Shown one piece after another: positions 9,756 through 41,261 of a DNA stretch of 64,000 nt. The DNA comes from [Clostridium] celerecrescens 18A (GTDB taxonomy: Bacteria; Bacillota; Clostridia; Lachnospirales; Lachnospiraceae). Below the pieces are notes generated by a model that did no database searches, was not told the origin of the DNA, and worked only from the letters and a program-made list of their open reading frames with translations. The position numbers were made by a program, and so were the translations under genes. The first letter of the stretch is position 1. Every line of letters starts with the position of its first letter. The stretch covers positions 4,080,001 through 4,144,000 of the forward strand of contig NZ_PGET01000001.1 in the NCBI RefSeq assembly GCF_002797975.1. The letters run 5' to 3'.

Positions 9756-10081
9756 TTTATTTAAACTCCTATTAAAATCCGGTAATTAATGTTTAAAATC
9801 CCATAATTTCAGTATTATTTATTCACATACATGTAGATAAGTAAGACCCTTTTTTTCTTAAAATCATATTTTCTACACTGGAGATTACAAGGATGTACGT
9901 GCACGGTTATCGTAACTACATCCTTGGTAATCTCCAGTTAGCCAAATAATCAAGAACAGACATTATAGAACGTGTGTTATATCATTGATAAACTTACTGT
10001 ATCTCCTTAAAACAGTCCTCTAACTTCCTTTTTCTCTTGTTCAATTCCCATGGATACTATTAATTTTTATTTCAGATTATC
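9756..10081. other. Intergenic stretch between immunity-like and RHS genes
   Basis: AT-rich, with no supported gene. Its only clear structure is the long inverted repeat at 9878-9937. Confidence 0.5.
9878..9937. repeat. Long imperfect inverted repeat
   Basis: The arms are CTGGAGATTACAAGGATGTA and TACATCCTTGGTAATCTCCAG, around a loop of about 19 nt. They pair over about 19 bp with one small bulge. There is no T-tract on either side, so it is not an obvious intrinsic terminator. Confidence 0.7.
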
Positions 10082-11350
10082 TTACTTTATGTATTCTCCC
10101 GTAGGAATTGGGGGCTCTCCTGCCTTGTTATATTGTGGTTTTCTTTGGGTGTATAATTCTCCAGTTTTCTTATCTACATAAATATCATATTCTGCTACTT
10201 TTGCCTTTTTCCCATAAATATCTTTCTTAAGTTGATGTGCATCAACTCCTTTCTTTTTCAGGTATGAATCATCCACTTTATCCAAATCTAATTTAGCGTT
10301 TGAATCCCCCTTACCTCCAGTCATTCCCAGTATTGCTGCTCCAGCTCCCAGTTCTCCTGAAATACCACCCTCAATCACTGCCTGCGGAACCATCACGGAA
10401 TAGGTATTTCCATATTGATCCATTACTAAGACACTCTTGTAATCTCCTCCACTTACAGATTGTTTTCCTTTAGAACTGAGAAATGACAAGAGCATTGTAA
10501 GCCCTAGTCCATATCCCACGTCAATCCCTGCTTCATATATCTTACGGAGTTTTTTTAGTTCATTTGCATCTTGAGTTCCCGGCCCATATATTTTTTCTAT
10601 TATGTTCTTCCAAATTCTATCGCTGTCTTCCCAGAATTGTTTATCCGTATAATTATAACGGGATGTGTTTCCGAACAATACATATATTTTCCCTATCGTC
10701 TCTCTATCCAGGGTCTTCCAGAAAGTTGATCCCCCTAATTGCTTTCCTGCATTAAATATCTGACAATATTTTGCCATACTCGAATTCTTTGCAAGATTCA
10801 TCAATCGGGTAAGATTATCTACCGCCTCCTCTTGCATACGGTTTATGTCTTTTAAAGTCGCATATTTTACACCCGTTGCTGCGTATTCACTCCCTACCTT
10901 TTGATTTCCATAAGTATCTTCTTTTTTCGAATCATAGGCCGCTGCTGATTTCGGCACCGAATACATTCCGCTTGGATCTACATAATTAGGCGCACTGCCT
11001 TTTACATAATTATAACGATTCAGGCTCAGTGGGTCTGTGATCTGTCCAAGGTAAGTATCTTCCGTCAAGAAATCTCCACGTTCCACATCATAGTAACGGC
11101 TTCTTAAATACTGGAACTCCAGATTCGGGTTGTAATCCTCTGCATTGTAGCTGTAAACATTATTATACTGCGGCTTTCCAAAGGTAATATCTCCGGTAGG
11201 GCTGTAGCGGTAGGACTTCCATAAGGTTCCCTCGCTGTCGGTTACTCCGGTGACGCTTCCTCTGGGATCGTTGGTATAATAACCTGTGAAACGCTCTAAG
11301 GGCCAGACGCTCATTTCCATAAGTATAAGCCGTATCCATTTCTCCGTCAA
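10082..11350 (-). CDS. RHS core and C-terminal toxin tip (intact 3' part of the broken gene)
   Basis: This open frame (up to 422 codons) keeps the RHS-associated core intact: DPRGSVTGVTDSEGTLWKSY, YNPNLEFQYLRSRYYDVERG and the end of the core, YNYVKGSAPNYVDPSGMYS (about residues 110-130), after which RHS proteins switch to a variable toxin. The following roughly 290 residues include helical segments and a Gly-rich hydrophobic stretch. The end is VDAHQLKKDIYGKKAKVAEYDIYVD, then QRKP and PTGEYI. That end resembles, from memory, the polymorphic toxin type 33 family (predicted nuclease). Without its upstream part it has no export signal. Whether it is translated from an internal ATG is unknown. 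Confidence 0.6.
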   Translation of the reverse strand: MTEKWIRLILMEMSVWPLERFTGYYTNDPRGSVTGVTDSEGTLWKSYRYSPTGDITFGKPQYNNVYSYNAEDYNPNLEFQYLRSRYYDVERGDFLTEDTYLGQITDPLSLNRYNYVKGSAPNYVDPSGMYSVPKSAAAYDSKKEDTYGNQKVGSEYAATGVKYATLKDINRMQEEAVDNLTRLMNLAKNSSMAKYCQIFNAGKQLGGSTFWKTLDRETIGKIYVLFGNTSRYNYTDKQFWEDSDRIWKNIIEKIYGPGTQDANELKKLRKIYEAGIDVGYGLGLTMLLSFLSSKGKQSVSGGDYKSVLVMDQYGNTYSVMVPQAVIEGGISGELGAGAAILGMTGGKGDSNAKLDLDKVDDSYLKKKGVDAHQLKKDIYGKKAKVAEYDIYVDKKTGELYTQRKPQYNKAGEPPIPTGEYIK

Positions 11351-33974: not shown

Positions 33975-34517
33975 TTACAAATGAAAATTAGGACCGAGGA
34001 TCTTTTTCAAGCAAACTCTTGTACGATATATCCGGGAACGGCAGACCGTTCCCGGAATTTTTAGGATTTCGCAAATTTCAGGAATGGTAAGCTGTTCCAG
34101 AAAATAAAGAATAGCCATTTCCTTCCATTCCTCTCTCATATTGGAAATCTCCCAGGTTATCTTTAAAAGAGCTTCCTCTCCAAGGATCACATCCAGGGGA
34201 TCAGTGACCACATATCTCGTAAGCATCGCCACCTCATTAACTGCATCTCCCTCATCCAGGCTCACCTTTTCATAATGGCCGTTCTTACGGAGGCAGTCAA
34301 TGGATTTACGTTTTAAAATCTTAATCAACATGCCTTTCTTTCGTGTATCGGTCCATGATAATGAATAATTCTCAAAATATGCAATAAAAGTTTCCTGCAC
34401 CACATCATCCAGTTCCATGTCCGGCACATTGAGTGTTTTCGCTATCCTGCGGAGCAATCCCTGATATTCCCCATATATAGACTGCAGTAACAAATTTTCA
34501 TCTTCATGTATGCTCAT
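33975..34517 (-). CDS. RNA polymerase sigma factor, sigma-70 family (ECF-like)
   Basis: A 180-residue sigma factor with regions 2 and 4. Region 2 includes LDDVVQETFIAYFENYSLSW (core binding and -10 recognition). Region 4 contains WKEMAILYFLEQLTIPEICEILKIPGTVCRSRIYRTRVCLKK. Region 3 is absent, so it is ECF-type. ATG at 34517 after GAGGGACACAATC is preferred to the longer frame; it overlaps the HIT gene stop by 4 nt (ATGA), so the two are translationally coupled. No anti-sigma gene is adjacent. It is convergent with the MurG-type gene, with only 3 nt between the stops. Confidence 0.88.
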   Translation of the reverse strand: MSIHEDENLLLQSIYGEYQGLLRRIAKTLNVPDMELDDVVQETFIAYFENYSLSWTDTRKKGMLIKILKRKSIDCLRKNGHYEKVSLDEGDAVNEVAMLTRYVVTDPLDVILGEEALLKITWEISNMREEWKEMAILYFLEQLTIPEICEILKIPGTVCRSRIYRTRVCLKKILGPNFHL

Positions 34518-34951
34518 TGATTGTGTCCCTCTGATTGTAGGGCGCTCCTTATAGCGTCTCCTGTCTGTATTAATTCTCCTGGATCTGCCTCGCCCGGCAC
34601 CCATGAAACCATAACAGGGCCTTCCTCATAACGAGGAATCAAATGTACATGAAAATGAAAAACCGTCTGGCCTGCTGCTTTCCCATTATTCTGCACAACA
34701 TTAAATCCGGCACAGCCTAATGAGTTTTTCATGGCGTTTCCTATTTTAGCCGCTAACGGGAGAACCTTTTTTGCTGTTTCCTCTTCCAGCTCACAGATAT
34801 CTTTGTAATGCTGTTTAGGAAGTATCAGGGCATGCCCCCTGGAAGCTGGTCCTAAATCCAGGATCACACGAAACATGTCATCCTCGTAGATCGTTTCAGA
34901 AGGTATCACGCCATTTGCAATTTTGCAGAAAATGCAATTATCGTCCCTCAC
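34514..34951 (-). CDS. HIT family protein (Hint-like)
   Basis: A 145-residue histidine triad hydrolase. It begins with the zinc-type CIFCKIANGVIPSETIYED (about 5-23), has GHALILPKQHYKDICELEE (about 39-57) and the triad TVFHFHVHLIPRYEEGPV (about 96-113). This is the canonical Hint/HinT (AMP-lysine hydrolase-like) type, unlike the shorter-motif HIT protein at 17339. It lies between rhomboid (upstream) and a sigma factor (4-nt overlap). Confidence 0.93.
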   Translation of the reverse strand: MRDDNCIFCKIANGVIPSETIYEDDMFRVILDLGPASRGHALILPKQHYKDICELEEETAKKVLPLAAKIGNAMKNSLGCAGFNVVQNNGKAAGQTVFHFHVHLIPRYEEGPVMVSWVPGEADPGELIQTGDAIRSALQSEGHNQ

Positions 34952-34974: not shown

Positions 34975-35595
34975 TTATCCCCATATCTCCATATTCTGGT
35001 GCCTTCTTGGCTTGCGGTACAGAAGTATCCCCATAACAATGCCAACAATGAGCCCACCAATATGGGCTGCATTATCTACGCCTGTGCTGGTAAAGCCAAA
35101 ATACAAGGAACACGCAATCACAACTGCCAGCTGTCTGACACTTAAGTCTTCCAGCCGGCCGCGATTAACTAATACCGCATATAAAAGGCCTCCGATCACG
35201 CCAAAAATTGCGCCTGACGCTCCTGCCGAGACTACGGTCCTGTATTCTCCAAGGTTCACTGCCATAGACACCACATTGGCGCCCAATCCGCAAAGCAAAT
35301 AGAAGAGCAGGTATTTTATATGGCCCAAGGCCCTCTCCAGATTATCTCCCAATATAAATAAAATGAGCATGTTATTCATAATATGGTTAATGCCAAAATG
35401 CATAAAAACAGAAGTGAGAAGCCGGTAATACTCTCCTCCCTCCAATACAAGCGGAGCGTACATCGCTCCATGTGCCACCATAAACTGCGTATTTTCCGTG
35501 GAGCCTGTCACCTCCAGATATAGGAAATAGATGACATTTATTGCGATCAAACCAATGTTTACAAATGCCTTCTTACGCCTGTATAAATCCTTCAT
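34975..35595 (-). CDS. Rhomboid family intramembrane serine protease
   Basis: A 206-residue membrane protease with six hydrophobic segments. The catalytic Ser is in GASGAIFGVIGGLLYAV (about 128-144) and the His in AAHIGGLIVGIVMGILLY (about 177-194). The L1-loop HFGINHIMNNMLILFILGD and the N-terminal YYRLLTSVFMHFG (residues 56-68) fit rhomboid. Its substrate is unknown. Just upstream, at 35639-35685, lies a relic of the 3' end of an FHA gene, so its ancestral neighbour on this strand was probably the FHA gene now at 39957. Confidence 0.92.
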   Translation of the reverse strand: MKDLYRRKKAFVNIGLIAINVIYFLYLEVTGSTENTQFMVAHGAMYAPLVLEGGEYYRLLTSVFMHFGINHIMNNMLILFILGDNLERALGHIKYLLFYLLCGLGANVVSMAVNLGEYRTVVSAGASGAIFGVIGGLLYAVLVNRGRLEDLSVRQLAVVIACSLYFGFTSTGVDNAAHIGGLIVGIVMGILLYRKPRRHQNMEIWG

Positions 35596-35638
35596 TGCAG
35601 CTCTCCTTGATAAATATTATGCCTATTTTAACACAAGT

Positions 35639-35685
35639 TGACATATTATGTAAATATAAACCCGAAATTTGCGGTAAAAACTTCA
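35639..35685 (-). repeat. FHA-gene 3'-end duplicate, left flank of the zinc cassette
   Basis: On the minus strand this reads GEVFTANFGFIFT and a stop. The real FHA protein at 39957 ends GDEVFIANYPFIFT and a stop. At DNA level it matches 39952-39996 with about five mismatches and a 2-nt gap over some 45 nt; the stop codon and a few bases beyond are included. Upstream of this the frame breaks. Confidence 0.75.
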
Positions 35686-35777
35686 CCATTTCAGCCTAAT
35701 CCTTCTTATATCCGGACGGCTGTTTCAAAAGGCATCCGGGGAACTTTTCCTGCCCGGCAAAGGGCTTTAAAGAAGGT

Positions 35778-35800
35778 AATTTGCGAAACATTCGCAAATT
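35778..35800. promoter_or_regulatory. Fur-family operator palindrome, upstream site
   Basis: AATTTGCGAA and its exact complement TTCGCAAATT flank 3 nt. It lies immediately upstream of the -35 box of the Fur-family gene. Confidence 0.8.
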
Positions 35801-35803
35801 ATC

Positions 35804-35832
35804 TTGACAACATTTCAATTCCGCAGTACACT
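35804..35832 (+). promoter_or_regulatory. Promoter of the metal-uptake operon
   Basis: A consensus -35 (TTGACA) and a -10 (TACACT) are separated by exactly 17 nt. Operator palindromes stand on both sides, so a bound repressor would occlude RNA polymerase. Confidence 0.85.
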
Positions 35833-35833
35833 T

Positions 35834-35854
35834 ATTTGCGAACAAATCGCAAAT
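35834..35854. promoter_or_regulatory. Fur-family operator palindrome, downstream site
   Basis: ATTTGCGA and its exact complement TCGCAAAT flank 5 nt. The site sits at the predicted transcription start and shares its half-site with the upstream palindrome. Confidence 0.8.
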
Positions 35855-35870
35855 TAGGAAGTGAACCCTT

Positions 35871-36260
35871 TTGGCCAACTATATGACAGCACAAAGAAAA
35901 CTGCTTTTTGCCTTTTTGCAGGAAAATCCTGACAGGCAATTCTCCGCAAAACAAATTGCAGACAGCCTTTCCGATTCATCCGTCAGTTTAAGTGCAGTGT
36001 ACCGTAATCTCACTTATCTGGAGGAGAAAGGGCTGATTAACCGCTTTACGAAAGAAGGTAGCCGGGAGCTTTTTTATCAGTATATTCATTCAGAGTATTG
36101 CCGTAATTGTATTCATATGAACTGCATAAAATGCGGAAGAACATTTCATATGGATGCCCACATTGCCGACAGGATGCTGGAGGACATTTTAAAAGTAGAC
36201 GGTTTTCAGATCAGAAAAGAGAAATCCGTTCTTTACGGAATCTGCAAAAACTGTATCTGA
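35871..36260 (+). CDS. Fur family metal-responsive repressor (Zur-like)
   Basis: A 129-residue Fur superfamily regulator: N-terminal winged helix (QRKLLFAFLQENPDRQFSAKQIADSL, SLSAVYRNLTYLEEKGLINR), then a metal-binding C-terminal domain with CRNCIHMNCIKCGRTFHMDAH and a final CKNC, giving two CxxC pairs for structural zinc. The start is TTG at 35871 after TTAGGAAG; ATG at 35883 is an alternative. It heads an operon with ZnuA, ZnuC and ZnuB components, so it most likely senses zinc (Zur), with manganese or peroxide sensing less likely. Its own promoter lies between two palindromes and is probably autoregulated. Confidence 0.87.
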   Translation: MANYMTAQRKLLFAFLQENPDRQFSAKQIADSLSDSSVSLSAVYRNLTYLEEKGLINRFTKEGSRELFYQYIHSEYCRNCIHMNCIKCGRTFHMDAHIADRMLEDILKVDGFQIRKEKSVLYGICKNCI

Positions 36261-36293
36261 TGTTTTCATCGTTTTTTAAAAGGAGGAAGAGAC

Positions 36294-36590
36294 ATGGCAA
36301 AAAACAAAAAGCTGCTTGCCGGGTTTATCACCCTGGCGATTCTTTTTATGCTGCTCTTTTCCGTATTTTATATCACTGCTGAAGCCCGCCATCAATGCAT
36401 AGGCGAGGACTGCCCCATCTGTCTTGAAGTTCAGGCCTGTGTCCAGGCCCTGAATACTCTTGGAACAGGCTTTGCGCCTGCTATTGCCGTTTTCGCGGCA
36501 GCCCACTTTTTTGTGATCTGCGTGATCCCGGTCTTTCACCGCAATCCTTCTCACACTTTGGTTTCTCTTAAGGTAAAGCTTACGAATTGA
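36294..36590 (+). CDS. Small Cys-rich membrane protein of the metal-uptake operon
   Basis: A 98-residue protein with two hydrophobic segments (about 8-28 and 58-82). Between them an outward or periplasm-side loop carries His and four Cys in HQCIGEDCPICLEVQAC, a good candidate metal-binding motif (CxxxxCxxC plus C). The tail is basic (VSLKVKLTN). It starts after AAAGGAGGAAGAGAC, 33 nt past the repressor gene. I do not know a named family; its position suggests a metal-handling accessory of the ABC importer. Confidence 0.75.
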   Translation: MAKNKKLLAGFITLAILFMLLFSVFYITAEARHQCIGEDCPICLEVQACVQALNTLGTGFAPAIAVFAAAHFFVICVIPVFHRNPSHTLVSLKVKLTN

Positions 36591-36709
36591 ATATTGATTG
36601 TAACAAGGGAGAATTCTGCCCATTTTAGGCAGAGACCGATTTCAGTCGACGCTCCCTTATATTCTTATGCCCATTTTTAATGATCTATATTTATTCGGAG
36701 GTTCTAATA

Positions 36710-37699
36710 ATGAAAAAATTAATTTCCTGCCTGTTAGCAGGACTTATGATTATAGGAGCACTAACTGCTTGCTCCAATACAAATGCAACGACAACGGCCA
36801 GCGATAACAATAAACTAAGCGTAGTATGCACAATTTTCCCGGAATACGATTGGGTCATGGAAATTCTTGGCAGCCATGGGGAAAATGGAGAGGTCACCAT
36901 GCTTTTAGATAACGGTGTGGATCTGCACAGCTATCAGCCGACAGCAGATGATATCATCAAAATTTCAACCTGCGATATGTTCATCTATGTGGGCGGCGAA
37001 TCCGACCAATGGGTGAAGGATGCCTTAAAGGAAGCTAAAAACAAAGATATGGTCGTAATCAATCTCCTTGAAGTTCTGGGCGACACCGTCAAAGAGGAAG
37101 AGGTCGTTGAAGGAATGGAGTCAGAGGAGGAGGAAGCCCACGAGGACAGTGAAGACGGCCCGGAATATGACGAGCACGTTTGGCTGTCACTGGAAAATGC
37201 CAAAACGTATTGCAATTATATTGCTGAAAAGCTGGGTGAAATCGACAGTGCAAATGCCGCGTACTATTCTGCAAACGCAGATGCCTATGGAAAAAAGCTG
37301 GATCAATTGGATGAAAGCTATCAGCAGGCGGTGGACTCTGCCAAACAGAATACCGTGCTGTTTGGGGACCGCTTTCCCTTCCGCTACCTGGCAGACGATT
37401 ACGGCCTTACCTATTATGCCGCATTTGTGGGCTGCTCAGCAGAAACGGAGGCCAGCTTTGAAACCATCGCCTTTCTTTCAAAAAAAGTTGATGAATTGGG
37501 GCTTGGCACTGTGCTGACGATTGAAGGCGCCAAGCATAAAATCGCCGAAACCATCGTTCAAAACACGAAGGATAAAAATCAGGCAGTCCGTACCATGGAT
37601 TCCATGCAGTCTACCACTTCCAAGGATGCAGAAAGTGGTACCACCTATCTTTCCATTATGCAGACGAATCTGGAAGTATTGAAAGATGCATTAAATTAA
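36710..37699 (+). CDS. znuA: Zinc ABC transporter substrate-binding lipoprotein
   Basis: A 329-residue ZnuA-type (cluster A-1) metal-binding protein. The lipobox LTAC lies near residue 19. The mature domain starts LSVVCTIFPEYDWVMEIL. Metal-ligand positions are in GVDLHSYQPTADDI (first His), DEHVWLSLENAK (second His) and the later FGDRFPFRYLADDYGLTYYA segment. An acidic loop rich in Glu and Asp with one His (about 132-152) is the flexible metal-capture loop typical of zinc-specific members. The start ATG at 36710 follows CGGAGGTTCTAATA. It feeds ZnuC and ZnuB, the next two genes. Confidence 0.93.
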   Translation: MKKLISCLLAGLMIIGALTACSNTNATTTASDNNKLSVVCTIFPEYDWVMEILGSHGENGEVTMLLDNGVDLHSYQPTADDIIKISTCDMFIYVGGESDQWVKDALKEAKNKDMVVINLLEVLGDTVKEEEVVEGMESEEEEAHEDSEDGPEYDEHVWLSLENAKTYCNYIAEKLGEIDSANAAYYSANADAYGKKLDQLDESYQQAVDSAKQNTVLFGDRFPFRYLADDYGLTYYAAFVGCSAETEASFETIAFLSKKVDELGLGTVLTIEGAKHKIAETIVQNTKDKNQAVRTMDSMQSTTSKDAESGTTYLSIMQTNLEVLKDALN

Positions 37700-37713
37700 G
37701 AGGAGGAATCAAT

Positions 37714-38424
37714 GTGGCACAGCTAACATGTAACAACCTTACCATCGGGTATGACGGTAAAACGGTCCTTAAGGGACTTAACTTTTCCGTAAACAGCGGT
37801 GATTATCTCTGTATCGTGGGAGAAAACGGTTCCGGGAAAAGTACTCTCATGAAAACCATTCTGCACCTTCTGGCGCCGCTTGAAGGAAGCATTGTTATAG
37901 AAAACAAGCAGCAGCCAGGAGGGATCGGGTATCTGCCTCAGCAGACAGTGGTACAAAAGGATTTTCCGGCATCTGTTTGGGAAATTGTTTTATCGGGCTG
38001 TCTGAACCGCTGTGGGATGCGTCCCTATTACAGCCGTGAAGAAAAACAGCTTTCCCGTGAAAATATGGAGAAAATGGGGATCTCTCATTTGTCCAAACGG
38101 TGTTACAGAGAATTGTCCGGAGGCCAGCAGCAGCGGGTTCTGCTGGCACGGGCGCTGTGCGCTGCCGGAAAAATGCTTCTGCTTGACGAGCCTGTTTCAG
38201 GGCTTGATCCAAAGGCCGCTGCTGAGATGTATGAGTTGATCCAAAAGCTGAATGAGGAGGGAATCACCATTATTATGATATCTCATGATATCGGCGCTGC
38301 CGTTAACTATGCAAGCCATATCCTGCACATGGGAAATCCCCTCTTTTTCGGAACAAGAGTTGAGTATTTGGACAGCAGCATCGGCAAAGCTTATTCTTCT
38401 CAGAACGGGGGCACAGAAGCATGA
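37714..38424 (+). CDS. znuC: Zinc ABC transporter ATP-binding protein
   Basis: The ATPase (236 aa) of the metal importer. Walker A is GENGSGKSTLMK (about 37-48), the signature LSGGQQQRVLLARAL (about 134-148) and Walker B LLLDEPVSGLD (about 156-166), with ISHD as the H-loop. The start codon is GTG at 37714 following AGGAGGAATCAAT; an ATG two bases earlier is out of frame and closes after four codons. It begins 14 nt after znuA and overlaps znuB by 4 nt. Confidence 0.95.
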   Translation: MAQLTCNNLTIGYDGKTVLKGLNFSVNSGDYLCIVGENGSGKSTLMKTILHLLAPLEGSIVIENKQQPGGIGYLPQQTVVQKDFPASVWEIVLSGCLNRCGMRPYYSREEKQLSRENMEKMGISHLSKRCYRELSGGQQQRVLLARALCAAGKMLLLDEPVSGLDPKAAAEMYELIQKLNEEGITIIMISHDIGAAVNYASHILHMGNPLFFGTRVEYLDSSIGKAYSSQNGGTEA

Positions 38425-39275
38425 ATATATTGATTGAAAAATTAACCTTATATTTTGAATATCCCTTTGTACGCTATGCACTGATTGTTGGGATATTAAT
38501 AGCTCTCTGTTCCTCCCTTTTGGGTGTTACGCTGGTATTAAAGCGTTTTTCTTTTATTGGCGACGGACTTTCCCATGTTGCTTTTGGCGGCATGGCAATC
38601 GCTACGGTAATGAAACTGTCCAATCAGATGCTGCTCATTCTGCCGGTTACCGTCATCTGCGCAATTCTTCTGCTGCGCACCGGTCAAAATGCCAAAATCA
38701 AGGGCGATGCGGCTATCGCTATGATTTCCGTGGGTGCGCTGGCCCTGGGCTACCTGCTTATGAATATATTTTCTGCTTCAGCCAACCTGGCAGGAGACGT
38801 ATGCAGCACGCTGTTTGGTTCAACCTCCATTCTGACACTGACAAAGACGGAAGTATGGCTTTGTGTTGCCCTTTCGGTGGTCGTTATCGCCGTATTTCTT
38901 CTATTTTACCATAAGATATTTGCAGTCACCTTTGATGAAGACTTTGCAAGGGCAACCGGCACAAAAGCGGAACAATACAACCTGATGATCGCGGTCATCA
39001 TAGCCATTATCATCGTACTTGCCATGAATCTGGTAGGCTCACTGCTGATCTCTGCATTGGTCATTTTTCCGGCGCTCTCAGCAATGCGTTTATTTAAAAA
39101 CTTTAAGTCTGTAATCCTTTGTTCGGCAATTCTTTCCGTATTCTGCGCCGTACTGGGAATTCTGACATCCATTCTGGCAGGAACGCCGGTCGGCTCTACC
39201 ATTGTAGCCGTTGATATCGCCGCGTTCGCCATATGCTCACTCATTGGGTGGATCTGGGGAGGTGTCAAAGGATGA
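38421..39275 (+). CDS. znuB: Zinc ABC transporter permease
   Basis: A 284-residue ABC-3 family permease with seven or eight membrane segments. Diagnostic parts are SLLGVTLVLKRFSFIGDGLSHVAFGG (about 33-58), GDAAIAMISVGALALGYLL and the NLVGSLLISALVIFPALSAM segment near 200. ATGA overlaps join it to znuC upstream and to the lipoprotein gene downstream, so translation is coupled across the three genes. Confidence 0.94.
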   Translation: MNILIEKLTLYFEYPFVRYALIVGILIALCSSLLGVTLVLKRFSFIGDGLSHVAFGGMAIATVMKLSNQMLLILPVTVICAILLLRTGQNAKIKGDAAIAMISVGALALGYLLMNIFSASANLAGDVCSTLFGSTSILTLTKTEVWLCVALSVVVIAVFLLFYHKIFAVTFDEDFARATGTKAEQYNLMIAVIIAIIIVLAMNLVGSLLISALVIFPALSAMRLFKNFKSVILCSAILSVFCAVLGILTSILAGTPVGSTIVAVDIAAFAICSLIGWIWGGVKG

Positions 39276-39880
39276 AACGTATCTTTGGAATGGTTCTGAT
39301 GCTTTTCATGGTAAACCTTGCATTAACAGGCTGCGGAAAAGACGCAGTGACCGCCCCCGGTCCGTCGTTAGCGCAAGGGGATCGGGCAGAGTCCGGACAA
39401 TATGAGGCTGCAGGCTCTGAACAATACGATTCTGAGAGTACAGAAGAATTTGACATAAATTCCTATCCTTCGGATTCCTTCGAACCAACTACGGAGCAAT
39501 TTCAGGATGATCCGGCGGGCTCCGCAAATAACACCGGATTTGATATTGACCTGACGAAATTAAGCAGCACTATGGTTTTTTCCGAGGTATACAATATGAT
39601 GATATCTCCGGAAGAATATATGGGAAAAACCATTAAAGCCGAAGGGATATTCCAGGTTTACCAGGATTCGAATAATATCAATTTTTATGCTTTGGTCATT
39701 GCGGATGCCACTGCCTGCTGCCAGCAAGGATTGGAATTAATCTGGGACGGAGATCCCGCCTATCCCGATGACTATCCGGTTGAAAATAGCGAAATAGAAA
39801 TAACAGGTGTGTATCAAAGTTATATAGAGGAAGGCAACACGTATTATTATGTACAGGTAAACGATGTTAAGGCGGTATAG
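39272..39880 (+). CDS. Lipoprotein with CC-motif OB-like domain in the zinc operon
   Basis: A 202-residue lipoprotein (lipobox LTGC near residue 21). About 65 residues of low-complexity acidic linker follow, rich in Ser, Glu and Tyr. The C-terminal 110-residue domain has GKTIKAEGIFQVYQDSN, then ADATACCQQGLELIWDGD with adjacent Cys, and EIEITGVYQSYIEEGNTYYYVQV. The pattern G-x-W/K-x-x-G ... CC ... V/ITG resembles the C-terminal domain of TIGR03943/YcgQ-type proteins that travel with zinc-uptake genes, from memory. It overlaps znuB by 4 nt and ends the operon. Possibly an extracellular metal-binding subunit; that is inference. Confidence 0.75.
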   Translation: MKRIFGMVLMLFMVNLALTGCGKDAVTAPGPSLAQGDRAESGQYEAAGSEQYDSESTEEFDINSYPSDSFEPTTEQFQDDPAGSANNTGFDIDLTKLSSTMVFSEVYNMMISPEEYMGKTIKAEGIFQVYQDSNNINFYALVIADATACCQQGLELIWDGDPAYPDDYPVENSEIEITGVYQSYIEEGNTYYYVQVNDVKAV

Positions 39881-39902
39881 AATTTCATTCCCATACCGCC
39901 AG

Positions 39903-39935
39903 TACACCGGTCTGAAAAAGGCCGGTGTATTTTTA
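39903..39935 (+). terminator. Terminator of the metal-uptake operon
   Basis: TACACCGG and CCGGTGTA form an 8-bp perfect stem followed by TTTTTAT on the plus strand. Confidence 0.85.
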
Positions 39936-39951
39936 TATAAATTAATATATA

Positions 39952-39996
39952 TGACATTATGTAAATATAAACGGGTAATTTGCAATAAAAACTTCA
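39952..39996 (-). repeat. FHA-gene 3' end, right flank of the zinc cassette
   Basis: The end of the intact FHA gene, which is duplicated at 35639-35685. The two copies are in the same orientation and bracket the metal-uptake operon almost exactly. Confidence 0.75.
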
Positions 39997-41261
39997 TCTC
40001 CTGTTTTCAGCAATACCGTCTCATTTGTTTCTAATACCCGCCCGTTCACAACGGTTCCATTGGTAGAATTTAAGTCACTGATCCGGTATTCTTCGCCTTC
40101 TCTGTCTATCCTGGCATGAATCCTGCTGATGGCTTCTCCCGCGAGAACACAATCGACCATACCTTCCTGCTTTCCAATTAAATAAGGGACATAAGTGATT
40201 GCGATATCTTCCCCATCAGCACCAACTGCTCGTAAGTACCGGATACTTTTATCGGCCTTTGTATCGTTTAACAAAACCGTTTGAAAAACTTCCTCATCTC
40301 CTGTATCAGGTTTTGGTGTCTTTTCCTCTATATCTTCTTCAAATGTCAACTTCCAGTCATAGCCTTCCGCCGGTTGACGCCCTCGCTCTTCCTTTTTCAC
40401 CATCATCTCTTTTGGCTGCCTGGAATCTTTTCTCCATATGGCCAAAGCTGCAAAAGCTGATACCCCCCCGGTGACGGGCACCCCATACCAGAATTTCCGA
40501 ATCCCTTCCATGCCAAAAACCAACCATAAAGCTGCGGCAATACCAAACATGGCTAAAATCGGGATAATGAAAACAGCACCATTCTCCTTACCATCTAAAA
40601 AGCGATTTCTTTCTTCGATCTCCTCATTAAATGAATACGAAAGGTGAGAGCTATGATTTTCTTCCGTCTTATTATCTCTTTCCGTCTGATGGCTGCTCTC
40701 ATTACTTTCTTTTTCGCTGGAACAATTCTTTCCGGCAATTTCAAGAAGGTCCTTCACCCCGTAATTTTCCTTAAGGCTTTCCTGATACAGGCCATACGCC
40801 ATAACTACACATTCCTTATCCTGATGATTGACCTTACCCAGAAGATACCGCAGCAACTCGGTCATCTCCTCCGGAAACCCCACCTGCCTTCCGGGGACAA
40901 GGCAAAGAGAAACCGTAAACTGCTCCGGCTCAACATAAATATATTCTGGCTCCAGAAGGATTTGTTTTTCCTTAAGCAGGTAAGCCTCCAGCCGCTCCAG
41001 AGTCCGTCCAATATCCTCTATTAACTTCTTAAGCTCCTCCCGGCCCAGACTATGATATTCAAGAACCCTGTTTAAGGGCTGCTTTGAGGTGATCTCATAA
41101 TAATATAACTTCTGGTTATCCACCTGCTTTACATGGAACTTCAGCAGTCCTCCGATTCTGTTTGCAGCCATCATATGTACCTCATAACTGTCATATACGG
41201 TCTCTTCCGGCTCCAGGATCAAATAATTGTGCTTCATTTCCCGCCTGTATACAGCCTTCAT
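39957..41261 (-). CDS. FHA domain protein with membrane segment (DUF6382-like)
   Basis: A 434-residue protein. The N-terminal 170 residues form a conserved domain (DUF6382, name from memory) with YRREMKHNYLILEPEE and LPGIRQ-like strands. Near 230-275 are two hydrophobic segments (FIIPILAMFGIAAALWLVFG and GVPVTGGVSAFAALAIW). The C-terminal FHA domain (about 345-434) has the phosphothreonine-binding residues: YLIGKQEG, ISRIHARID and DLNSTNGTVVNGR. It is the last gene of the Tad pilus operon, 1 nt after the small TadE gene. A Ser/Thr phosphorylation link for the pilus is inference. RBS CAGGAGGAATGAG. Confidence 0.85.
   Translation of the reverse strand: MKAVYRREMKHNYLILEPEETVYDSYEVHMMAANRIGGLLKFHVKQVDNQKLYYYEITSKQPLNRVLEYHSLGREELKKLIEDIGRTLERLEAYLLKEKQILLEPEYIYVEPEQFTVSLCLVPGRQVGFPEEMTELLRYLLGKVNHQDKECVVMAYGLYQESLKENYGVKDLLEIAGKNCSSEKESNESSHQTERDNKTEENHSSHLSYSFNEEIEERNRFLDGKENGAVFIIPILAMFGIAAALWLVFGMEGIRKFWYGVPVTGGVSAFAALAIWRKDSRQPKEMMVKKEERGRQPAEGYDWKLTFEEDIEEKTPKPDTGDEEVFQTVLLNDTKADKSIRYLRAVGADGEDIAITYVPYLIGKQEGMVDCVLAGEAISRIHARIDREGEEYRISDLNSTNGTVVNGRVLETNETVLLKTGDEVFIANYPFIFT

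Follow-up and report, generated by a model that had tools for sequence, protein, structure and literature searches.

A ZnuABC-type cassette at an FHA-rhomboid junction of [Clostridium] celerecrescens lies between two copies of a gene end that appears to have doubled as a promoter region

In the 64,000-nucleotide stretch of the [Clostridium] celerecrescens 18A genome analyzed here (the window), a cassette of 4271 bp (35,686 to 39,956) occupies the junction between an FHA gene and the gene of a rhomboid-family intramembrane protease (Table 1). The cassette is read from the plus strand and both neighbors from the minus strand, which agrees with the opposite orientation described in an earlier note on this DNA. 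It codes, in this order, for a Fur-family regulator, a small protein (orf98), ZnuA, ZnuC, ZnuB and a CC-motif lipoprotein, and the gene coordinates leave no intergenic gap larger than approximately 120 bp. As judged by their protein families, a ZnuA, an ABC ATPase and an ABC-3 permease (PF01297, PF00005 and PF00950) lie together in one operon, and the cassette is best described as a metal-uptake operon of the ZnuABC type with zinc as its putative substrate. The best solved relatives of its ZnuA, by sequence comparison only, are YcdH and AdcA. The regulator is probably Zur-like, although its NCBIfam scores fall short of the cut-offs for both Zur (27.7 bits, 167 needed) and PerR (46.4 bits, 180 needed). 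Zur, a Fur-family repressor of zinc uptake, is reviewed in PMC6103462. With ZnuABC/AdcABC zinc-uptake operons the cassette shares a substrate-binding protein, an ATPase, a permease, a Fur-family gene and palindromes around the promoter. Unlike those operons, it adds orf98 and the CC-motif lipoprotein, and its matches stay below the NCBIfam cut-offs. A foreign base composition was considered and rejected: with a GC content of 0.454 against 0.447 for the window, the two are alike and there is no compositional signal.

Table 1. Features of the cassette, its flanking repeats and the neighboring genes (positions in the window).
Feature	Position	Strand	Evidence or remark
Sigma-70-family factor gene	33975..34604	-	PF04542 on 33978-34511; start uncertain, ORF overlaps HIT
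HIT-domain protein gene, downstream of rhomboid	34514..34951	-	PF01230
Rhomboid-family intramembrane protease gene	34975..35595	-	PF01694, E 6.9e-37
Predicted rhomboid promoter, TTTACA-18-TAAAAT, TG before -10	35625..35654	-	Consensus scan
Copy A, displaced FHA 3' end	35646..35685	-	Contiguous with rhomboid; carries predicted rhomboid -35 and upstream element
Operator-like palindrome 1, TTTGCGA-N5-TCGCAAA	35780..35798	n/a	One of two exact genome matches
Predicted cassette promoter, TTGACA-17-TACACT	35804..35832	+	Consensus scan; sits between both palindromes
Operator-like palindrome 2, TTTGCGA-N5-TCGCAAA	35835..35853	n/a	Second of two exact genome matches
Fur-family metalloregulator gene, probably Zur-like	35871..36260	+	PF01475, E 1e-16
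orf98, small protein, HxCxGEDCxxC motif	36294..36590	+	Without Pfam or NCBIfam match
ZnuA-like metal-binding lipoprotein gene	36710..37699	+	PF01297, E 9.4e-70
ZnuC-like ABC ATPase gene	37714..38424	+	PF00005
ZnuB-like ABC-3 permease gene	38421..39275	+	PF00950, E 5.8e-50
CC-motif lipoprotein gene	39272..39880	+	Without Pfam or NCBIfam match
Predicted intrinsic terminator of cassette	39901..39931	+	13 pairs, T tail
Copy B, last codons and stop of intact FHA gene	39957..39996	-	35/40 identical to copy A
FHA gene (DUF6382 and FHA domain)	39957..41261	-	PF19909, PF00498

The cassette is bracketed by a direct repeat of the FHA 3' end, of which copy A lies on the rhomboid side and copy B closes the intact FHA gene. 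Over an ungapped core the copies agree at 35 of 40 bases; the runner-up among all other plus-strand 40-mers of the window agrees with copy A at 23. No third core site was found in the 5.27-Mb genome when the five differing bases were masked and up to three further mismatches allowed, a search whose backward-pattern control also gave 0 matches. The direct repeat reported in the earlier note is thus present, although the limits given there (35,639 and 39,952) overshoot the convincing match by a few bases, and both copies indeed read EVFxANxxFIFT-stop on the minus strand. Since both copies also occur in the six other cassette-bearing genomes of the genus, the repeat is not peculiar to one genome. 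By inspection, both look like descendants of the host's own FHA end.

Across 25 genomes of the genus, including the source genome, the cassette is found with both repeat copies and the same flanks in seven (the filled genomes). In the other 18 (the empty genomes), the FHA gene adjoins rhomboid at a distance of 52-55 bp with a single copy of the core, and none of the 18 junctions holds any other element. The seven cassette genomes are monophyletic (UFBoot 100) and sister to one empty genome (support 93), and the topology of the cassette tree is that of the host tree, some deep nodes of which are supported at only 62-78. ZnuA orthologues at 81-95% are confined to these seven genomes; the ZnuA matches of 17 empty genomes reach at most 35% identity and are located elsewhere, and the remaining one (G011, 67% complete) gave no match. 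A single clade and agreeing cassette and host trees argue for one old insertion, in an ancestor shared by these 7 of 25 sampled species, followed by vertical inheritance. The earlier note had anticipated both an old insertion and relatives in which FHA lies next to rhomboid with one FHA 3' end, which is the state of 18 of the 24 other genomes, so that the cassette is far from being kept in all relatives. Transfer of the FHA gene, or of its C-terminus, along with the cassette was rejected, as FHA trees keep the seven together beside G001 (support 100 for the full-length protein, 98 for the N-terminal part and a weaker 87 for the C-terminal part).

The repeated stretch has a second likely use, which escaped the earlier note. 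A consensus scan places a promoter upstream of rhomboid whose predicted -35 element falls within the last FHA codons, and the arrangement is identical in L039, the one empty relative scanned. By inspection, TTTACA is present in all 25 genomes and TAAAAT in 24, G022 having TAGAAT. The scan returned 14 consensus matches over 4.7 kb, for which shuffled sequence gives an expectation of 8.6. A promoter inside the coding end of the upstream gene is a known general concept, and such an overlap freezes synonymous sites. Over the last 13 FHA codons of the 18 empty genomes, synonymous identity is 0.921 against a gene median of 0.484-0.488, and this window of codons ranks first of 361 or 394, a rank that is not an independent test because the genomes are related. 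A codon-usage null gave a mean of 0.476 and a maximum of 0.566 in 500 draws, and the 3' ends of seven other tested genes range from 0.457 to 0.813. Among all 1821 codon windows, the gene starts of TadE1 (0.951) and HIT (0.934) stand above the FHA 3' end. The freezing begins near codons -14 and -13, in agreement with the repeat's left-hand limit. With predicted promoter elements lying in codons whose synonymous change is depressed, the FHA end appears to have doubled as the promoter region of rhomboid. As in the general concept, a downstream promoter would lie in upstream codons with frozen synonymous sites; unlike it, a later insertion here would have divided the two roles between two copies.

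The two copies have since changed differently. In the seven filled genomes, the FHA end has a synonymous identity of 0.715 against a median of 0.681 (rank 141 of 430). It is relaxed in these genomes although they are less diverged than the empty ones. Variable sites at the first, second and third codon positions number 2/2/3 in the empty genomes, 3/2/8 in copy B and 5/4/3 in copy A, which thus lacks coding periodicity among the seven genomes. Copy A retains the promoter elements, and upstream of the -35 its mean identity is 0.881, compared with 0.762 at rhomboid fourfold sites (21 pairs), the six pairs with G008 being lower in copy A identity (0.74-0.81). Overall, copy A is only moderately conserved.

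The order of events could in principle be reversed. Direct repeats can drive precise deletion, and recombination between the two copies could have removed an ancestral cassette from the genomes that are now empty. This is scarcely credible here, as the tree would require four or more independent losses (in G001, in the groups of G022 and of G005, and in G013), the filled genomes form one nested clade, and a cassette-type ZnuA was found in none of the 18 empty genomes. Another possibility, raised in the earlier note, is that the whole FHA gene was duplicated with the cassette inside, copy A being all that is left of a second FHA gene. Copy A can be read in frame with FHA up to a stop, yet no FHA homology was seen upstream of the core in the spacers of six genomes (12 comparisons, P 0.14 to 0.84, G008 left out), a weak test given that two spacers measure only 27 bp and short spacers have little power. 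This explanation was rejected and seems very improbable. A link between an operator half-site and the FHA end was dropped as post hoc; within the window, copy B and the operator region have two 9-mers in common, copy A and that region have none, and a shared 9-mer turns up for approximately 2% of random 50-mers (101 of 5000 draws).

The remaining two explanations are claims on mechanism and are compatible with the preferred reading given below. On the one hand, the cassette may be a relic of an integrative element of the site-specific kind, whose integrase, since lost or acting in trans, would have recombined the FHA 3' end with the att site of a circular form to produce attL and attR. Direct repeats of this kind, one of them inside the gene 3' end, flank the cassette in 7 of 7 filled genomes, and the empty site is clean. 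A possible parallel is L104, where a related cassette has an intact tRNA-Thr on one side and a copy of the tRNA-Thr 3' half with its terminator on the other, the repeats being 4.14 kb apart and no integrase being seen by eye among the listed ORFs. A tRNA or tmRNA also lies within 350 bp of detected cassette genes at L104, L097, L127, L111 and L284, a raw count of 5 in 153 distinct loci that includes L284, where only ZnuA was detected. Against this, and as the earlier note had said of the integrase, profiles of tyrosine and serine recombinases (PF00589 and PF00239) find nothing in the window at E 0.001, the nearest match being approximately 42 kb from copy A, and no integrase relic was found inside or beside the cassette. 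The 25 genus genomes contain no further element with this core, viral contigs hold 0 exact matches to it, and other elements have left the site unoccupied in 18 of 18 empty genomes. Strong flanking repeats were found around 3 of 138 cassettes outside the genus set, L104 among them, compared with 1 of 106 control positions (3 vs. 2 at a lower threshold), and general mobility of the cassette with such repeats was rejected as they are not clearly enriched. The apparent descent of both copies from the host's own FHA end also speaks against it, and a site-specific origin is judged rather unlikely. What does recur in the outside cassettes is orf98, alongside the znu genes in many of them, and the operator-like palindromes, which accompany Fur-bearing cassettes (20 of 122 tested with up to two mismatches, 6 exact).

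On the other hand, the repeat may stem from a tandem duplication of the junction or from a homology-assisted illegitimate insertion, with no site-specific recombinase. The duplication could have been longer, its outer parts having decayed until only the constrained stretch is still visible. The left limit of the repeat coincides with the onset of synonymous constraint and its right limit with the FHA stop, as expected if selection trimmed the repeat. Residual homology past the core was nevertheless not detected, either between the copy A spacer and FHA in the six genomes above or between the sequence downstream of copy B and rhomboid (P 0.045-0.76 in seven genomes, 0.045 being one of seven tests). 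On balance, this origin is regarded as somewhat better than an even bet.

Published systems resemble the locus in part. CIMEs, as characterized in PMC5704250, are cis-mobilizable or decayed integrative elements at gene 3' ends that may lack an integrase by definition. Like them, the cassette is cargo that lacks an integrase, has a gene 3' end repeated directly on its two sides and leaves an empty site in relatives. It is unlike them in that no integrase relic or sister element with the same core was found, the insertion is single and vertically inherited, and the repeat falls on a predicted promoter. PMC2884548 favors illegitimate recombination as the source of many small variable segments in bacterial genomes and gives 10-18% of segments with flanking direct repeats, mostly under 30 bp, which it takes as deletion sites, so that it serves as background and not as direct support for illegitimate insertion at this locus. 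Like such segments, the cassette is a short insert that separates conserved genes and has direct repeats but no recombinase; it differs in that its repeat of approximately 41 bp is a dual-use gene-end and promoter sequence, by our reading, fixed over a clade of species. Titles and abstract openings in the literature revealed no recognized case in which an insertion had separated a gene end from a promoter overlapping it, which is weak evidence of absence.

The preferred reading, to which we give a probability of roughly 80%, is a single insertion accompanied by a duplication that divided a dual-use stretch of gene end and promoter. The promoter match and the frozen synonymous sites suggest that in the ancestor the last 13 or so FHA codons also supplied rhomboid with the -35 and upstream part of its promoter. 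A whole metal-uptake transcription unit (operator, Fur-family repressor, orf98, ZnuABC, lipoprotein and terminator) would have entered this junction once. Because no single insertion point would spare both functions, the insertion that survived would be one flanked on both sides by the shared stretch of approximately 41 bp, which may have been duplicated by an integrase, by integration of a circle through short homology, or by tandem duplication before or during illegitimate insertion. From then on, copy A would have acted as the promoter of rhomboid and copy B as the coding end of FHA, each freed of the other's constraint, in line with the changed substitution patterns. Dual use of the FHA end would thus explain why just that stretch persists twice, whatever carried out the insertion. 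It is also fairly likely that dual use had made the junction insertion-proof, and that a horizontally acquired operon could become established there only if the stretch was duplicated and its functions were thereby divided between two copies.

When an insert has repeats at its ends, they are usually read as the footprint of an integrase. A second reading fits here, in which the repeat persists because both copies are selected, for different reasons. If this is general, repeat length at gene junctions may reflect functional overlap rather than the length of an att site. With 18 empty and 7 filled genomes, the locus offers a before-and-after comparison of how much of the synonymous conservation at a gene end is owed to the promoter of the next gene. 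If the proposed reading is true, it would be a natural experiment in which coding and regulatory constraint can be told apart at each base, and it may reveal a general rule on which insertions survive at overlapped gene junctions.

Copies A and B of the repeat are identical at 35 of 40 bases, the same strand of the window holds no other 40-mer closer to copy A than 23/40, and a masked pattern with three mismatches allowed matches only these two places in the 5.27-Mb genome; the duplicated 3′ end of the FHA gene described in the earlier note is therefore real. On the minus strand both copies read EVFxANxxFIFT-stop. Past this core, no homology was found on the spacer side of copy A (P 0.14–0.84 in six genomes, G008 left out) or on the copy B side (P 0.045–0.76 in seven genomes), short spacers making both tests weak.

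Coordinates of the repeat, the predicted promoter and features of related loci
Feature	Locus	Coordinates	Strand
Copy A, rhomboid side	window	35646-35685	minus
Copy B, end of intact FHA gene	window	39957-39996	minus
Predicted rhomboid promoter	window	35654-35625	minus
Operator with one mismatch	L203	G000:C1:1863883-1863901	
Broken ZnuA gene of G008	L035	8678-9693	
tRNA-Thr 3′-half repeats	L104	940-1040; 5079-5209	
Promoter-like 83-bp repeats	L134	7530-7611; 10528-10610	
tRNA-Arg(CCT), tmRNA or tRNA cluster	L097	7357-7432	
same	L127	6646-6721	
same	L111	6905-7249	
same	L284 (oriented copy)	9922-10195	

The genus sample comprised 25 genomes (our own and 24 others), all with an FHA-gene match; the locus was taken from all 24 relatives and its genes were placed by tblastn. 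As the earlier note had anticipated, FHA adjoins rhomboid on the same strand, with one FHA 3′ end and without the cassette, in 18/24 relatives, where 52–55 bp separate the last FHA sense codon from the rhomboid start. The cassette, made up of Fur, orf98, ZnuA, ZnuC, ZnuB and lipoprotein genes, lies between rhomboid and FHA in the remaining six (G006, G014, G008, G002, G009 and G012) and in the window's genome. Both copies are present in 7/7 filled genomes and a single copy in 18/18 empty ones; at two mismatches or fewer, the core pattern yields six more matches elsewhere in six of the 25 genomes, each with two mismatches, against two in the backward control.

In a host tree built from 1491 columns of seven flanking proteins, with G033 as outgroup, the seven filled genomes form one clade (UFBoot 100), sister to the empty genome G001 (93), some deeper nodes being at 62–78. 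A cassette tree from five proteins (orf98 excluded) has the same topology among these seven, to which ZnuA orthologues at 81–95% are confined. ZnuA matches in 17/18 empty genomes occur elsewhere only, at 35% identity or less, and G011, an empty genome that is 67% complete, has none. The nested clade, the matching trees and the restricted ZnuA thus establish one insertion event followed by vertical descent, which, with the empty sites, bears out the insertion proposed earlier. Trees of the whole FHA gene or of its halves gave no hint that it arrived together with the cassette. The top-scoring ZnuA outside the genus (G634, locus L246) is just 69% identical and comes from another family of the same order, which points to an unsampled donor.

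Judged from its predicted genes and operators, the cassette is a putatively self-regulated uptake operon of known kind. Pfam identifies Fur, ZnuA, ABC ATPase and ABC-3 permease, and the solved proteins nearest to ZnuA are YcdH and AdcA, so that zinc is the likely substrate; none of the cassette proteins reaches the NCBIfam cut-offs for Zur, ZnuA or AdcA. In G008, a draft genome, ZnuA is broken across two frames near codon 156, through error or decay. Two exact TTTGCGA-N5-TCGCAAA palindromes, the only exact sites in the genome, flank the predicted cassette promoter. One further site has a single mismatch and sits some 40 bp upstream of an ORF resembling a tRNA-Met cytidine acetate ligase; sites with two mismatches carry no weight, as the genome holds 24 at two or fewer against 28 in the backward control. 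Within about 350 bp upstream, the palindrome (two mismatches or fewer) precedes 20 of 122 outside cassettes tested, six of them with exact sites and all six with a detected Fur gene, against a chance expectation of about 0.2 in that much sequence, estimated from genome density.

The FHA end overlaps a predicted consensus promoter of rhomboid, TTTACA-18-TAAAAT with TG ahead of the −10, arranged identically in the empty G001. By inspection, TTTACA is found in 25/25 genomes and TAAAAT in 24/25 (TAGAAT in G022), a consensus match alone being weak (14 per 4.7 kb in a promoter scan vs 8.6 in shuffles). In empty genomes, TTTACA supplies the final two sense codons of FHA, with the stop codon falling within the spacer. 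A working promoter there should freeze synonymous sites, and across 121 pairs of empty genomes with FHA identity of at most 75% the last 13 codons have a synonymous identity of 0.921, ranking first under both filters against gene medians of 0.484 (361 windows) and, with the looser filter, 0.488 (394 windows). The top FHA window free of overlap with it reaches 0.724, a codon-usage null gives a mean of 0.476 and a maximum of 0.566 (500 draws), and seven neighbouring genes have 3′ ends ranging from 0.457 to 0.813. The FHA end stands out from other 3′ ends, but not from the full set of windows, because in 1821 windows of eight genes one of TadE1 (0.951) and one of HIT (0.934), near the gene start, exceed it and others come close.

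In filled genomes, where the FHA end lies 4.3 kb from rhomboid, the same FHA window is unremarkable (0.715 against a median of 0.681, rank 141/430, 19 pairs). Split by codon position, the variable sites among the 39 bases are 3/2/8 for copy B and 5/4/3 for copy A, against 2/2/3 for the single copy of the 18 empty genomes, small counts from related genomes that carry no formal probability. Copy B thus varies like ordinary coding sequence, and copy A like non-coding sequence that retains the −35 and most upstream bases. Conservation of copy A is moderate (mean identity without the −35 of 0.881 vs 0.762 at rhomboid fourfold sites, 21 pairs), except in six pairs involving G008 (0.74–0.81). The pattern fits two roles, formerly borne by one sequence, that would now be split. 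In L033 and L034, two cassette loci of the genus, the FHA stop is now TGA and is followed, between lipoprotein and FHA, by a tandem array of roughly 16-bp units starting TTTACAT, perhaps slippage at a relaxed copy B.

While the insertion stands, the integrase-mediated, site-specific route that the earlier note associated with it is one option among others. A recent integrase is disfavoured: the window contains no match to PF00589 or PF00239 (the nearest tyrosine recombinase is about 42 kb off), and no second element with the same core turned up in the 25 genomes or, by exact pattern, in viral contigs. The sample of outside loci with a related ZnuA numbered 160, of which 153 are distinct (80 retained from one search plus 80 among the better matches of three others): orf98, ZnuA, ZnuC, ZnuB and the lipoprotein are jointly detected in 62/153, with a detectable Fur in 15 of the 62, and ZnuA is the sole detected cassette gene in 17/153. 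Strong direct repeats (score of at least 25, within 2 kb) flank 3/138 loci with enough flank vs 1/106 control positions of equal size within those loci; lowering the score to 18 gives 3/138 and 2/106. The telling case in favour is L104, from a Saccharofermentans MAG, whose cassette sits between an intact tRNA-Thr gene and a partial copy comprising the 3′ half and terminator of that gene, the repeats lying 4.14 kb apart; paired changes in the T stem of the partial copy suggest that it probably derives from another functional tRNA gene. In L134, the promoter-like repeat stands before the cassette and before the next gene, which looks YbjQ-like by its motif, and L145 has a short 41-bp repeat; a search with 4-kb flanks (101 loci) added L147, located at the end of a contig, and, with a weak signal, L146. 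tRNA and tmRNA genes are classical integration sites. Four outside loci (L097, L127, L111 and L284) have such genes within 350 bp of detected cassette genes, and in the first three no flanking repeat attains the listed scores. Integrase-driven moves of this cassette may therefore happen, though not as a rule.

Better support, on the sequence comparisons, goes to reading the duplicated 3′ end as a dual-use sequence, predicted promoter and FHA end at once, whose overlap the insertion would have resolved. With the two interlocked as in empty genomes, any single insertion point would disrupt either the promoter or the FHA end, and the insertion able to survive would be one with the shared part on both sides. 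The limits of the present repeat, one where constraint sets in near codons −14 and −13 and the other at the stop codon, may hence have been set by selection, and would say nothing about how long the original duplication, or any att site, was.
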